Shown here one piece after another: positions 1,410-16,428 of a stretch of DNA of 18,644 nucleotides (within the stretch, counting starts at the first letter, position 1; each line of letters begins with the position of its first letter). A program made the position numbers and the translations under genes. A model generated the notes under the pieces. The model did not search any database, had not been told where the DNA came from, and worked only from the letters and a program-made list of their open reading frames with translations. The DNA lies in contig JAISSL010000026.1 of the NCBI GenBank assembly GCA_031273145.1, positions 1 to 18,644 of the forward strand. Reading direction: 5' to 3'. Source of the DNA: Zoogloeaceae bacterium. GTDB taxonomy: Bacteria; Pseudomonadota; Gammaproteobacteria; Burkholderiales; Rhodocyclaceae.

Positions 1410-1451
1410 TTGACGTAAATCAAATCCATTCTTATGTATAGGGTAATAATT
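1410..1451 (+). promoter_or_regulatory. FNR/ANR-type box and promoter upstream of a short transcript
   Basis: TTGAC-GTAA-ATCAA (1410-1423) matches the FNR consensus TTGAT-N4-ATCAA in 9 of 10 half-site positions. Its centre is at 1416.5, so a class II site at -41.5 predicts a start near 1458. The AT-rich element TAATAAT (1444-1450) sits within one or two bases of where the -10 should be. The target appears to be the short unit that ends at 1546, not directly ccoN, because a strong terminator lies in between. FNR binding is inferred from sequence alone. Confidence 0.65.
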
Positions 1452-1457
1452 CGTGTC

Positions 1458-1546
1458 GTTTTACCGCTAGGTAGACGGGGCTTCGCAAGGAGCCTGGTTG
1501 TTTCTCTGTTGGGGTTGGGGTGCGTTTTGCGACGCACCCTTTTTTT
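1458..1546 (+). ncRNA. Candidate FNR-activated small RNA (about 90 nt)
   Basis: The unit has a predicted FNR-dependent promoter ending near 1451, no convincing open reading frame, and a strong intrinsic terminator at its end (8-bp stem and seven T). A small internal hairpin is possible, GGCT (1479-1482) with AGCC (1491-1494), leaving an unpaired pyrimidine-rich stretch GTTTCTCTGTT before the terminator. Known FNR-activated small RNAs (FnrS of enterics, AniS of Neisseria) have this architecture, but I see no sequence match to them. The alternative is a long ccoN leader with a premature terminator. The 5' end is uncertain by a few bases. Confidence 0.5.
1518..1546 (+). terminator. Intrinsic terminator upstream of ccoN
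   Basis: GGGTGCGT (1518-1525) pairs perfectly with ACGCACCC (1532-1539) around a six-base loop, followed by seven T (1540-1546). It would end any transcript started at the FNR-type promoter upstream. It does not follow a protein gene on this strand. Confidence 0.85.
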
Positions 1547-1800: not shown

Positions 1801-3231
1801 ATGTCGGAAACGCAAACCACATACAACTACAAGGTCGTAAGGCAATTCGCCGTGATGACCGTCATCTGGGGGATCGTCGGCATGTTGGTCGGCGTCATCA
1901 TTGCCGCCCAGCTGATCTGGCCAGAGCTGAATCTGTTGCCTTTTCTATCTTATGGCCGCCTGCGGCCACTGCATACCAATGCGGTGATTTTCGCATTTGG
2001 CGGTTGTGCCCTGTTCGCTACGTCGTATTACAGCGTTCAGCGTACCTGTCACACGCGACTGTTCTGTGACTGGTTGGCAGGCTTTACCTTCTGGGGTTGG
2101 CAGCTCGTCATCCTGCTGGCGGCGGTTTCGCTGCCTTTGGGTATTACGGTGGGCAAGGAATATGCCGAACTGGAATGGCCGATCAAAATTCTGATCACCA
2201 TTGTCTGGGTGTCCTATGCCGTCGTGTTCTTCGGGACGCTCCTGAAGCGCAAGGTTCAGCACATCTATGTCTCGAACTGGTTCTTCGGCGCGATGATCAT
2301 TGCCGTAGCCTTGCTGCACCTGGGGAATAGCGCGGTGATTCCATTTGCGCCGTCTCTTCTGGCCAGATCGTATCCGGTTTATGCCGGCGTACAGGATGCC
2401 ATGGTGCAATGGTGGTACGGTCACAACGCGGTGGGCTTCTTCCTCACGGCGGGCTTTTTGGGCATCATGTACTACTTCGTGCCGAAGCAGGCCGGACGTC
2501 CGATCTATTCCTATCGGCTGTCCGTGGTGCACTTCTGGGCGTTGATCTTCACCTACATGTGGGCGGGTCCGCACCATCTGCACTACACGGCCTTGCCGGA
2601 CTGGACGCAGACTCTGGGGATGTTGTTCTCGCTCATTCTGATTGCGCCTTCCTGGGGCGGGATGATCAACGGGATCATGACCCTCTCTGGCGCGTGGCAC
2701 AAACTGCGTGACGACCCCGTCCTGAAATTCCTGATTACCTCGCTTTCCTTCTACGGCATGTCGACCTTTGAAGGCCCGATGATGTCCGTGAAGTCGGTGA
2801 ACGCGCTTTCCCACTACACGGACTGGGGGATTGGGCACGTGCATTCCGGCGCTTTGGGCTGGGTGGCGATGGTATCCATCGGAGCGTTGTATTATCTGAT
2901 TCCGCGCCTCTTCGGGCGGCAGCAGATGGCCAGTATTTCGCTGATGACGGCGCACTTCTGGATCGCTACGATCGGGATCGTGCTGTACGCGGCTTCCATG
3001 TGGATTGCTGGCGTGATGCAGGGTCTGATGTGGCGGGCGGTCAATGCGGATGGCACTCTGATGTACAGCTTCGCGGAAGCGGTCAAGGGTTCCTACATCT
3101 TCTGGCAGATCCGTTTTGTTGGCGGCACGCTGTTCCTGGTTGGAATGCTGATCATGGCATACAACATGTTCAAGACAATTGGGGAAGGCAGGAGCGAAGA
3201 CGCGCCTGTGCTCGCTCCGTCTCACGCCTAA
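1801..3231 (+). CDS. ccoN: cbb3-type cytochrome c oxidase subunit I CcoN
   Basis: This is the catalytic haem-copper subunit of the high-affinity cbb3 oxidase, which reduces O2 to water in the inner membrane. The 476-aa protein has about twelve hydrophobic segments. Visible ligands are H58 (LHTNAV, low-spin haem b), H208 (WWYGHNAV, CuB), H258/H259 (GPHHLH, CuB), H346 and H348 (GHVHSG, haem b3 and haem b), the cross-linking tyrosine candidate Y252, and E324 (STFEGP). All keep the spacing of characterised CcoN. The ATG at 1801 follows GAGGTG by about six bases. An ATG five codons earlier overlaps that ribosome site and is less likely. It opens the ccoNOQP operon, 15 bases before ccoO. Confidence 0.97.
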
Positions 3232-13878: not shown

Positions 13879-13913
13879 GGAGATGGAATCTTGGCATCTC
13901 CTTGTTGTTTTTC
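13879..13913 (+). terminator. Possible terminator after gpsA
   Basis: GGAGATG (13879-13885) pairs with CATCTCC (13895-13901), followed by TTGTTGTTTTT. The stem is only 7 bp and the T-run is interrupted, so it could instead be a leader hairpin of the peroxidase gene. Confidence 0.5.
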
Positions 13914-13953
13914 ACAGCCTTCCAATTTCCTTAAACTTTTGGAGATTCAAGCC

Positions 13954-14964
13954 ATGAAACCAAAATATCGCATGGGAACCTTCCCAACCTTGTTTGCGGC
14001 GTTGTCGCTTACTTTTGCGGGTTTTGCTGCCGCAGCCGGGGATGAACCCATCACGCCGATCAAAGCGCCCACCGGCATCCATCAGGGCAAGGCCGAACTG
14101 GGCAAGAAACTTTACTTCGACCCGCGCCTTTCCAAATCCGGTTTTATTTCCTGCAATTCCTGCCACAACCTTTCCCTGGGCGGCACGGACAATCTGCCGA
14201 CGGCGATTGGGGATCGCTGGCAACAAGGCCCGATCAACTCGCCGACGGTATTGAATTCCAGCCTCAATCTGGCGCAGTTCTGGGATGGTCGCGCAGCCGA
14301 CCTGAAGGCGCAGGCAGGCGGCCCGATTGCCAATCCGAAGGAAATGGGCTTTACGCATGAGCTTGCCGTCAATGTGCTGGCAACGATTCCCGGCTATGTG
14401 AGCGAGTTCAGGCATGTGTTCGGCAAGGACAAAATTGATATGGATCAGGTGACGGAAGCCATTGCCGAATTTGAAAAAACGCTGGTAACGCCCAATTCTC
14501 GCTTTGACCACTGGCTGCGGGGCGATGAAAAAATCCTGACTGCCGATGAAAAGGCGGGCTATGCCCTGTTCAAGAAGAGCGGTTGCGTGGCTTGCCATAA
14601 TGGCGAGGCGGTCGGCGGCAATTCCTTCCAGAAGATGGGGCTGGTTGAGCCTTACAAGACCTCCAATCCTGCGGAGGGACGTTCTGCCGTGACGGGGCAG
14701 GATGCCGAGCGGTTCAGTTTCAAGGTGCCGACCCTGCGGAATGTGGAATTGACCTATCCCTACTTCCATGATGGCGCGGCGCACACCCTGACGGAAGCGG
14801 TCAACCTCATGGGACGCCTGCAATTGGGCAAGAAATTCTCGACAAAGGAAAACGCGCAGATTGTCGCCTTCTTGAAGACCTTGACCGGCGATCAGCCCAG
14901 TTTTGCCCTGCCGATTCTGCCGCCTTCGACCGACAAGACTCCGCGTCCGGTTCCTTTTGATTGA
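13954..14964 (+). CDS. Di-haem cytochrome c peroxidase (CcpA/MauG family)
   Basis: This periplasmic enzyme reduces hydrogen peroxide with electrons from cytochrome c. The 336-aa protein has a signal peptide (about residues 1-28, cleavage in AAAAG) and two haem c motifs, CNSCH (67-71) and CVACH (211-215). W110 (FWDGRA), YPYFHDGAAHTL (H272, H277) and M286 agree with bacterial cytochrome c peroxidases, where the methionine ligates the high-potential haem. GGAG lies nine bases before the ATG. A very strong terminator begins 17 bases after its stop. Together with the cbb3 oxidase it suggests handling of peroxide formed at low oxygen. Confidence 0.93.
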   Translation: MKPKYRMGTFPTLFAALSLTFAGFAAAAGDEPITPIKAPTGIHQGKAELGKKLYFDPRLSKSGFISCNSCHNLSLGGTDNLPTAIGDRWQQGPINSPTVLNSSLNLAQFWDGRAADLKAQAGGPIANPKEMGFTHELAVNVLATIPGYVSEFRHVFGKDKIDMDQVTEAIAEFEKTLVTPNSRFDHWLRGDEKILTADEKAGYALFKKSGCVACHNGEAVGGNSFQKMGLVEPYKTSNPAEGRSAVTGQDAERFSFKVPTLRNVELTYPYFHDGAAHTLTEAVNLMGRLQLGKKFSTKENAQIVAFLKTLTGDQPSFALPILPPSTDKTPRPVPFD

Positions 14965-15793
14965 GTTCAAAACCCTCATCCCGGCAAACAGGCGAACCCG
15001 CCTGTTTGCCGGTTTTTTCGCCTTGTGCCTCATTGTGTTTGGCGTGGCAAAGATGATGTCAATATCGGAAGATACCCTGCCTGCGGCGGAGATGGATTTT
15101 CTGGGGCAGCAGAAGCAGTATGCGCGGGTACGGGCGGCGCTGCAAAACAGGTTGGATGCGCTCAACCGCACCCTTGCCGCGCATGGCCTTAATCCGGACG
15201 ACCTCAACATTCTCATCGTGGCCTACAAGGCGGAGGCGGTTCTGGAAATTTACGCGAAGGCTTCAGGCGCGGCGCGGTACGAGAAGCTGATTTCGTACCC
15301 CATCTGCGCCGCTTCCGGGAGCCTCGGCCCCAAGCGACAGGAAGGAGATAAACAGGTGCCGGAAGGGTTTTATCGGATTGACCGCTTCAATCCGGCGAGC
15401 AACTACCATCTCTCCCTTGGCATCAACTATCCCAATCAGGCGGACAGGCTGAAAACCCGTGCCGCCGATCCGGGCGGCGACATTTTCATTCATGGCGGCT
15501 GCGTGACGATTGGTTGCCTGCCCATGACCGATCCGGTCATGGAGGAAATTTATCTCTATGCTGTCTATGCCCGCAACAGCGGACAGGAGACGATTCCCGT
15601 CTATCTTTTTCCGTTTCGCTTGACAGCGGAGAACATGAAAAAGTACGCGGCGGACTATCGCGCAACGCCTGAGCTGCCTGCCTTTTGGCGCACCCTCAAA
15701 CAGGGCTATGACCAGTTTATCGAAAGCGGCAAGGCGCTTGAAGCGCGGGTTCTGGAAAGTGGCGATTATGGCTTTGATTTACCCCAGGTTTGA
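14957..15793 (+). CDS. YkuD-domain protein, YafK/DpaA-like
   Basis: The product resembles E. coli YafK (LdtF/DpaA), a YkuD-fold periplasmic enzyme reported to cut the link between Braun lipoprotein and peptidoglycan. Visible features are SYPICAASGSLGPKRQEGD (about 113-131), PEGFYRI, and the catalytic HGGCVTIGC segment with H179 and C187. A basic stretch NRRTR and a hydrophobic segment (about 16-31) look like a signal anchor. The start is uncertain. The TTG at 14957 overlaps the peroxidase stop and keeps the signal anchor, while an ATG at 15053 would remove it. The first codons coincide with a perfect 14-bp terminator hairpin. The frame stays open upstream without a better start. Confidence 0.8.
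   Translation: MIEFKTLIPANRRTRLFAGFFALCLIVFGVAKMMSISEDTLPAAEMDFLGQQKQYARVRAALQNRLDALNRTLAAHGLNPDDLNILIVAYKAEAVLEIYAKASGAARYEKLISYPICAASGSLGPKRQEGDKQVPEGFYRIDRFNPASNYHLSLGINYPNQADRLKTRAADPGGDIFIHGGCVTIGCLPMTDPVMEEIYLYAVYARNSGQETIPVYLFPFRLTAENMKKYAADYRATPELPAFWRTLKQGYDQFIESGKALEARVLESGDYGFDLPQV
14981..15018 (+). terminator. Strong intrinsic terminator after the peroxidase gene, inside the next reading frame
   Basis: CCGGCAAACAGGCG (14981-14994) pairs perfectly with CGCCTGTTTGCCGG (14999-15012) around AACC, followed by six T (15013-15018). It should end the peroxidase transcript. The same bases, read in the YafK/DpaA-like frame, encode PANRRTRLFAGFF, the basic and early hydrophobic part of its signal anchor. 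Confidence 0.9.
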
Positions 15794-15818
15794 CAAGCGT
15801 AAACAAAAAGTTTATAAG
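15790..15818 (+). promoter_or_regulatory. higBA promoter with putative operator
   Basis: TTGACA (15790-15795), a 17-base spacer and TATAAG (15813-15818) form a near-consensus promoter. An inverted repeat, TAAAC-AAAAA-GTTTA (15800-15814), lies between the two hexamers and overlaps the -10, a natural place for HigA or HigBA autorepression. The predicted start falls at about 15825, on the toxin ATG itself. The -35 overlaps the stop codon of the preceding gene. Confidence 0.75.
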
Positions 15819-15824
15819 TGCGCC

Positions 15825-16106
15825 ATGATTAAGACCTTTGCCAACGAAGAGACAGAATCTTTCTGGGAAACCGGCAAATCACGTCGTTTTCCTCATGCGA
15901 TTCATAAGCGCGCCACCATGCGCTTACTGCAACTTGCGGCAGCAGTAGTCGTAGAGGACATGCGCGTGCTACCGTCAAATCACCTGGAAGCCCTGAAAAA
16001 CGACCGCGCTGGGCAATGGAGTATCCGCATTAACGGACAGGGGCGTATCTGTTTTGCGTTTTTAGACGGCAACGCTTTCGATGTTGAAATTGTCGACTAC
16101 CACTAG
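15825..16106 (+). CDS. higB: HigB-type toxin, RelE/ParE superfamily
   Basis: HigB toxins are ribosome-dependent mRNA endonucleases. The 93-aa product matches the family in LEALKNDRAGQWSIRINGQGRICFAF (about residues 55-80, key part GQWSIRIN..RICF) and ends with DVEIVDYH, a typical HigB terminus. It precedes its antitoxin, the order characteristic of higBA. No Shine-Dalgarno is visible before the ATG, and the promoter is so close that the mRNA may be leaderless. The antitoxin gene starts ten bases after its stop. Confidence 0.93.
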   Translation: MIKTFANEETESFWETGKSRRFPHAIHKRATMRLLQLAAAVVVEDMRVLPSNHLEALKNDRAGQWSIRINGQGRICFAFLDGNAFDVEIVDYH

Positions 16107-16116
16107 GAGAACTGCC

Positions 16117-16428
16117 ATGTTACCAGCCATTCACCCCGGTGAATTCCTTGCCGAAATCCTGAAAGAGTACGCTCTTTCACAAGCAGCCTTCGCCCGCAGA
16201 ATCGGAGTATCGCCCATGCGAATTTCCCATGTCATAAAATGCGAACGTCCCGTAACGGCAGAACTCGCCTGTCGCTTCGGCAAAGCCTTTGGACAAACGC
16301 CACAGTATTGGCTTAATCTGCAAGCGGATTATGACCTGAAAATCGCGCTTGCTAAACTCAAACCCGCCATTTCACACATCAAGCGGTTGTCTGAATTCAC
16401 GCCAGAAAGCAAACAACTTCACGCATGA
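16117..16428 (+). CDS. higA: HigA-type antitoxin, XRE family
   Basis: This 103-aa protein has an N-terminal helix-turn-helix (about residues 18-65) with IHPGEFLAEIL, LSQAAFARRIGVSPMRISHVI and the HigA/VapI signature QTPQYWLNLQADYDLKIA. It should neutralise HigB and repress the higBA promoter. AGGAG (16105-16109) lies seven bases before the ATG and overlaps the toxin stop. Unlike the toxin, it has a good ribosome site, so antitoxin synthesis should exceed toxin synthesis from the shared mRNA. Confidence 0.94.
   Translation: MLPAIHPGEFLAEILKEYALSQAAFARRIGVSPMRISHVIKCERPVTAELACRFGKAFGQTPQYWLNLQADYDLKIALAKLKPAISHIKRLSEFTPESKQLHA

Follow-up and report, generated by a model that had tools for sequence, protein, structure and literature searches.

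A conserved, probably FNR-activated small RNA gene of the Rhodocyclaceae, usually located beside ccoN and predicted to pair with a DsrC/TusE-like message

What is the function of the DNA between folD and ccoN when it carries an FNR-type box, a promoter-like element and a terminator of its own? This question arose in a stretch of 18,644 nucleotides from a Zoogloeaceae bacterium (hereafter the window), in which a first-pass annotation had placed a short FNR-driven transcript, a candidate anaerobic small RNA (sRNA), in front of the cbb3 oxidase operon and had named attenuation of a long ccoN leader as the alternative. The best reading of the comparative evidence is that the unit represents a new family of FNR-activated base-pairing sRNAs, which would work like FnrS and AniS while being unrelated to them in sequence. 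The conserved gene itself is real and far from chance. Judged from sequence, it is probable that 1458-1546 is a conserved sRNA gene, likely activated by FNR at low oxygen and predicted to act as a repressor of mRNAs whose ribosome-binding sites pair with its core, UCUCUGUUGGGGUUGGGG.

The unit lies on the plus strand between folD (minus strand) and ccoN, and its parts are collected in Table 1. The box and the TAATAAT element, as originally proposed, can be read directly in the sequence; the box is centered at 1416.5, and the -41.5 geometry puts the expected RNA start at about 1458, again as proposed. The perfect 8-bp hairpin with seven T said to close the unit is likewise present at 1518-1546, with arms GGGTGCGT and ACGCACCC at 1518-1525 and 1532-1539 and the seven T at 1540-1546. 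A terminator scan called 1517-1540, with ten pairs if G-U is included; since there are four terminator-like sites in the 800-2200 region versus 2.1 expected, the call alone is weak evidence. A generic sigma-70 scan found no promoter in the same region, which would be expected if an activator replaces the -35 element. The predicted transcript folds into two 5' hairpins, followed by the core GTTTCTCTGTTGGGGTTGGGG and then the terminator, and few dinucleotide shuffles of 1457-1547 fold as stably (1 of 200; z -3.5). It is the recurrence of this architecture across the family that sets the locus apart from chance. Elsewhere in the window, two overlapping small ORFs at 15708-16428 look by eye like a HigB/HigA-type toxin-antitoxin pair, and an ORF at 13891-14964 resembles, again by eye, a di-haem cytochrome c peroxidase.

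Table 1. Features of the sRNA locus and the adjoining ccoN region in the window
Feature	Position	Strand	Basis or remark
FNR-type box TTGACGTAAATCAA	1410-1423	.	Read directly; upstream of the predicted sRNA
-10 element TAATAAT (predicted)	1444-1450	+	Read directly
Predicted sRNA, ~89 nt	1458-1546	+	Start from -41.5 geometry, end from terminator
First 5' hairpin, 1460-1465 with 1470-1475	1460-1475	+	Covariation
Second 5' hairpin, 1478-1484 with 1489-1495	1478-1495	+	Covariation
Core GTTTCTCTGTTGGGGTTGGGG, nearly invariant, predicted pairing stretch	1500-1520	+	Alignments A1 and A2; duplex tests
Intrinsic terminator, perfect 8-bp stem and seven T	1517-1546	+	Read directly; terminator scan; covariation
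Second FNR-type box TTGATATAGGTCAA	1677-1690	.	Box here in 87/92 ccoN-linked homologues listed
ccoN, cbb3 oxidase subunit I	1801-3231	+	Pfam COX1, E 3.3e-115

How widely is this unit conserved? A DNA search of 60 relatives returned same-family homologues that match mainly at the core and the terminator, and an exact pattern for the 3' part found at least 119 stretches in a named genome collection. Among the matches listed, the records with this pattern include Azoarcus, Thauera, Dechloromonas, Accumulibacter, Azonexus, and Zoogloea, as well as Denitromonas, Uliginosibacterium, Tepidiphilus, Desulfobacillus, and others. When the 3' part, made up of core TTTCTCTGTTGGGGTTGGGG and terminator, was searched for by covariance model, 118 of 150 sampled same-family genomes scored at least 43 bits, while nine had weaker matches only and 23 had none, all genome counts being taken without regard to kinship. 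In a sample of 300 genomes from the order, matches of at least 43 bits were confined to ten genomes, all of the same family; 67 genomes of other families matched at no more than 40.7 bits, under order-wide search filters strict enough to lose weak matches. Seven of the best 20 out-of-family loci have a core-like stretch (at most five mismatches), and no box, exact or with one mismatch, lies within 160 nt upstream of any of these seven. Matches outside the family in the order sample were rejected on these results. The plasmid and viral collections yielded no match to the sRNA. According to the named records, the conserved sRNA gene looks like a trait of one family, the Rhodocyclaceae. Two genomes of the same genus, G004 (L012, L181) and G006 (L010, L179), have two sRNA copies each on different contigs, as if these were sibling RNAs or mixed bins.

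The search pattern for homologues consisted of the 3' part only and contained no box or promoter. Among the matches listed, 117 copies have upstream sequence of sufficient length, and 115 of them have an exact TTGAN6TCAA 30-160 nt upstream, compared with 27 of 20,850 random 130-nt stretches of the same loci. Conservation of box and hairpin in relatives, which the first-pass annotation had set as a check, is seen in these 115 copies and in the 118 genomes above. Moreover, in 109 of the 115 listed copies the distance from the start of the box to that of the best -10 hexamer is 35 or 36 nt, and this fixed spacing is that of the class II, -41.5 geometry. As to the protein that would read the box, the window genome encodes a protein over the cut-off of the FNR model NF008365, and an FNR-model match is found in all 19 sRNA-positive genomes tested, in one case slightly under the cut-off; FNR is also found in 22 of 28 sRNA-negative or weak genomes tested. 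The motif TTGAN6TCAA is common to CRP/FNR-family regulators, and several genomes have more than one FNR-model match. It is conceivable on these grounds that another member of that family, for example a Dnr- or FixK-type protein, activates the unit through the same box, but we regard this as unlikely given the protein over the cut-off in the window genome and the matches in every sRNA-positive genome tested. The gene for the chaperone Hfq was present in 17 of 17 genomes tested, and the window genome also has Hfq.

The neighborhood of ccoN bears on whether the unit is a gene in its own right. Among the matches listed, 92 of 119 loci have ccoN on the same strand, no more than 900 nt downstream, an arrangement that would suit a regulated leader in which transcription from the first FNR box continues into ccoN and the hairpin serves as an attenuator. 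However, an exact FNR box intervenes between the terminator and ccoN in 87 of these 92 listed copies, so that the sRNA unit and ccoN are each likely driven by an FNR promoter of their own, evidence against a mere ccoN leader. The best -10 element of this second box fits the -41.5 geometry in 48 of the 87 listed copies and is 5 nt closer in 30, and the box TTGATATAGGTCAA in the window, which the first-pass annotation had not pointed out, is likely ccoN's own promoter box. Of the other 27 listed loci, 14 end too early, whereas 13 have no ccoN within 900 nt although their downstream sequence extends for 1,200 nt or more; four of these 13 have ccoN 1.8-2.4 kb away. Together with a core that is nearly invariant and complementary to a gene in trans, as described below, these observations disfavor attenuation of a long ccoN leader, the alternative offered at the outset, and make it very unlikely.

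The structure of the RNA was assessed in alignment A2, which comprises 14 same-genus copies and leaves out L022, L023, L027, and L179 for their longer 5' inserts. Both 5' hairpins covary within the genus, as the first-pass annotation had proposed to check: changes on both sides occur in three of six pairs in the first and four of seven in the second. The terminator stem has such changes in three of ten pairs, with 94% of cells paired. For the whole structure, both-sided changes in 10 of 23 pairs were reached by 3 of 500 shuffles, and the covariation score of 0.334 is higher than in shuffles (0.257; attained by 0 of 500) and than the maximum of 0.159 obtained by sliding the structure along the alignment, in a test biased somewhat in its favor by taking the window's own fold as the structure. 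The number of further pair types was not unusual (80 of 500 shuffles). RNAalifold recovered the same hairpins. Across genera, the 5' part varies in length and sequence while core and terminator are constant, and alignments A1 and A2 show almost no variation at any position of the core. A variable 5' stem, an invariant stretch predicted to pair, and a terminator is the pattern of a small RNA. The pairing stretch had been described as unpaired and pyrimidine-rich. The likely pairing stretch is the core UCUCUGUUGGGGUUGGGG, which is G/U-rich in its 3' half and thus not purely pyrimidine-rich; in addition, a weak UCUC/GGGG hairpin is possible within the core and counts against the pairing reading.

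The most consistent predicted partner of the core is the start of a DsrC/TusE-like gene. Twenty-four loci with at least 65% identity were read, 21 of them sRNA-positive and three sRNA-negative, with a second close copy in G150 left out of the set. The core pairs with the start region at -24.9 to -42.1 kcal/mol in 20 of the 21 sRNA-positive loci; 18 of these 20 beat all 200 shuffled seeds, and the other two beat all but 2 and 7. The exception is G068 (65% identity), whose DsrC/TusE-like gene does not pair (-15.3). The three sRNA-negative genes gave -23.4 (G104), -21.0 (G060), and -18.9 kcal/mol, with 5, 0, and 34 of 200 shuffled seeds, respectively, being as good; the G060 site reads as if it were a worn-down remnant. 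Six paralogues of about 50% identity (L357-L362) gave energies between -13.7 and -26.6, and for each of them at least 2 of 200 shuffles did as well. An exact test of the separation between the 20 positive and the three negative genes, with G068 and L357-L362 left out, gave 1 in 1,771. As for control starts, sites at -24.9 or below were found in 0 of 96 ccoN, 7 of 72 ccoO, 2 of 62 ccoP, and 1 of 44 ccoG genes, and the ccoN start was rejected as an sRNA target on this count. In G118, where gene starts were called in 73% of the genome, the DsrC/TusE-like gene ranks first among 1,815 gene starts (-33.9). It is the rank that matters here, not the energy alone, because ten control seeds reach -28.6 to -33.6 at their best sites, which lie at other genes. 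This genome has no general excess of strong start matches, with seven at -28 or below versus 2 to 25 for the ten control seeds, and target candidates from single genomes are therefore tentative. In the window genome (86% complete), no DsrC/TusE-like match was found at E 1e-25. Many of the loci L333-L355 have an inverted motif like CCGACTAWWW...GTCAAGTAT upstream of the predicted sRNA pairing site. We take this motif to resemble an IscR type-1 site, by which the DsrC/TusE-like gene may belong to Fe-S or oxidative-stress control.

These target predictions also weigh on the idea that the RNA acts on a protein, as a sponge or by sequestration, and not by pairing with mRNA. The strong 5' hairpins, variable in sequence with their pairing kept, would fit such a role, as would complementary start sites that show no general excess; yet the most conserved part of the RNA is the core, complementary to the DsrC/TusE-like start in 20 of 21 sRNA-positive orthologues, and protein binding as the main activity is quite improbable. 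That the unit encodes a short peptide is hardly credible: one frame is open in 1458-1546, but the window copy has no ATG there, and the 5' part differs greatly from genus to genus in length and sequence, whereas the core DNA is nearly invariant at all positions.

If base pairing is the mode of action, the core might also have targets in individual lineages. Some near-perfect matches to its reverse complement lie away from the sRNA and coincide with ribosome-binding sites. In the window genome, the near-exact complement lies at the start of the malonyl-CoA decarboxylase gene (mcd), with 16 consecutive pairs ending 7 nt before an ATG and a duplex of -33.4 (0 of 200 shuffled seeds as good); the mcd start, and with it the place of the site, is uncertain owing to upstream in-frame ATGs in this genome. 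The mcd site is strong in 2 of 15 cases (the window genome and its relative G017), moderate in G003, and absent in 12, and mcd was thus rejected as a genus-wide target. In G020, a complement falls on the ribosome-binding site of a small secreted protein that is lipoprotein-like by eye, and other near-perfect complements in the same search have no ORF downstream. Two loci, L164 (G013:C173) and L178 (G011:C32), contain exact 16-nt core complements with shared flanks and no obvious ORF after them, and are perhaps a second unit or a remnant.

A start-site pattern searched across 150 genomes gave 55 matches, eight of them antisense to the sRNA itself, versus 23 for the reversed pattern. By hand count, there were nine matches in 32 sRNA-negative genomes and 38 in 118 positive genomes; the excess cannot be attributed to the sRNA because the matches are about as frequent in genomes that lack it. 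Fifty of the 55 matches were read, 44 of which are non-sRNA loci, and an ORF of at least 100 aa follows in 28 of these 44. Such ORFs include SodC, a TusE/DsrC/DsvC-family protein, 4-hydroxyphenylpyruvate dioxygenase (HPPD), a c-type cytochrome, an oxygenase-type reductase, ErpA, and allantoicase. Of 30 sodC loci, two, from genomes of a single genus, have a strong site and three others a moderate one, and sodC was rejected as a general target. SodC, HPPD, and the c-type cytochrome are candidates for lineage-specific targets. Among the 30 best predicted sites of G118 are two neighboring starts, at about 853297 and 857170, that by eye belong to malate synthase and isocitrate lyase; these are within noise.

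How does this RNA compare with known sRNAs? The absence of any likeness to FnrS or AniS, already remarked on from the sequence, is upheld by Rfam, where no family, and hence no FnrS, matches the window at the gathering score. Sub-threshold scores were 19.7 versus 111 for SorY and 17.1 versus 50 bits for AniS (RF02274), both probably reflecting a generic hairpin-plus-terminator shape, and identity with AniS was rejected on its score. AniS and gonococcal FnrS are counterparts, and they provide a β-proteobacterial precedent with a similar layout. The neisserial RNA is described as FNR-induced and 108 nt long, with a 5' stem-loop, an unstructured stretch, and a terminator, and the gonococcal fnrS gene as antisense to an ORF beside bacterioferritin (PMC3032703); it is not near ccoN, whereas the sRNA here usually is. 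FnrS of Escherichia coli and Salmonella is reported to be FNR-activated from a class II box at -41.5 (PMC3032703) and to repress functions that are dispensable without oxygen (PMC8139620). The class II -41.5 FNR box is shared with the sRNA here, whose box is read from sequence alone, but the latter belongs to another order, is linked to ccoN, and has a different core. The same account stated, as of 2011, that fnrS had no observed homologue beyond the Enterobacteriaceae (PMC3032703). PaiI of Pseudomonas and PcrZ of Rhodobacter are described in one article as low-oxygen sRNAs under several regulators, FNR-type ones included, with the FNR-type control probably or possibly indirect (PMC8139620); they share low-oxygen expression with the RNA here, where it is predicted, and belong to other lineages.

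The conserved β-proteobacterial sRNA S17/bdhR1 has an invariant stretch that pairs near ribosome-binding sites, and the paper describing it names Aromatoleum and Desulfobacillus (PMC11722255). Assigned to the 'toxic sRNA' family RF02278, it resembles the sRNA here in having an invariant stretch and in occurring in the same family. However, its locus is separate (514,166 in a Desulfobacillus genome versus 2,291,231 for the sRNA here) and the cores differ, so identity was rejected; RF02278 has no match in the window at the gathering score, and its matches listed for nine genomes do not cover the sRNA locus. The S17/bdhR1-type sRNA, with core GTCTCCTCCACCCTCCTCCTTTGGTGTGGA (L184-L189), is over the cut-off in six of nine family genomes. 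No description of the RNA reported here was found in the openly licensed PMC literature, covering for broad topics the top-ranked papers.

Most likely, in line with FnrS and the neisserial RNA, the sRNA would operate as follows. As oxygen falls, FNR would become active and fire the sRNA promoter together with ccoN's own promoter. The RNA would end at the terminator at about 1546 and, probably helped by Hfq, would cover the ribosome-binding site of a few messages and so block ribosomes. A more far-reaching picture, which we put forward tentatively and doubt slightly more than we trust, is that of a family-wide anaerobic Rhodocyclaceae RNA with one invariant seed of about 20 nt, usually located by ccoN and fired by FNR, that silences the DsrC/TusE-like mRNA and so links oxygen sensing to the sulfur relay; by lineage it would be redirected to SodC, oxygenases, cytochromes, or, in the window's lineage, malonyl-CoA decarboxylase. 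Confidence in the full mechanism and in the sulfur-relay reading is lowered by the G060 result, by the control seeds, and by start-site matches being as frequent in sRNA-negative genomes; that the conserved gene exists is unaffected by any of these.

Among Azoarcus, Thauera, Dechloromonas, Accumulibacter, and Zoogloea are well-known denitrifiers, degraders of aromatic compounds, and wastewater bacteria. An sRNA arm of the oxygen switch in these genera was not found in the same literature, with the same coverage of broad topics, and the present finding supplies a sequence model, a conserved predicted target, and a promoter for culturable strains. If true, it would point to separate origins of FNR-driven sRNAs in enterics, Neisseria, and the Rhodocyclaceae.
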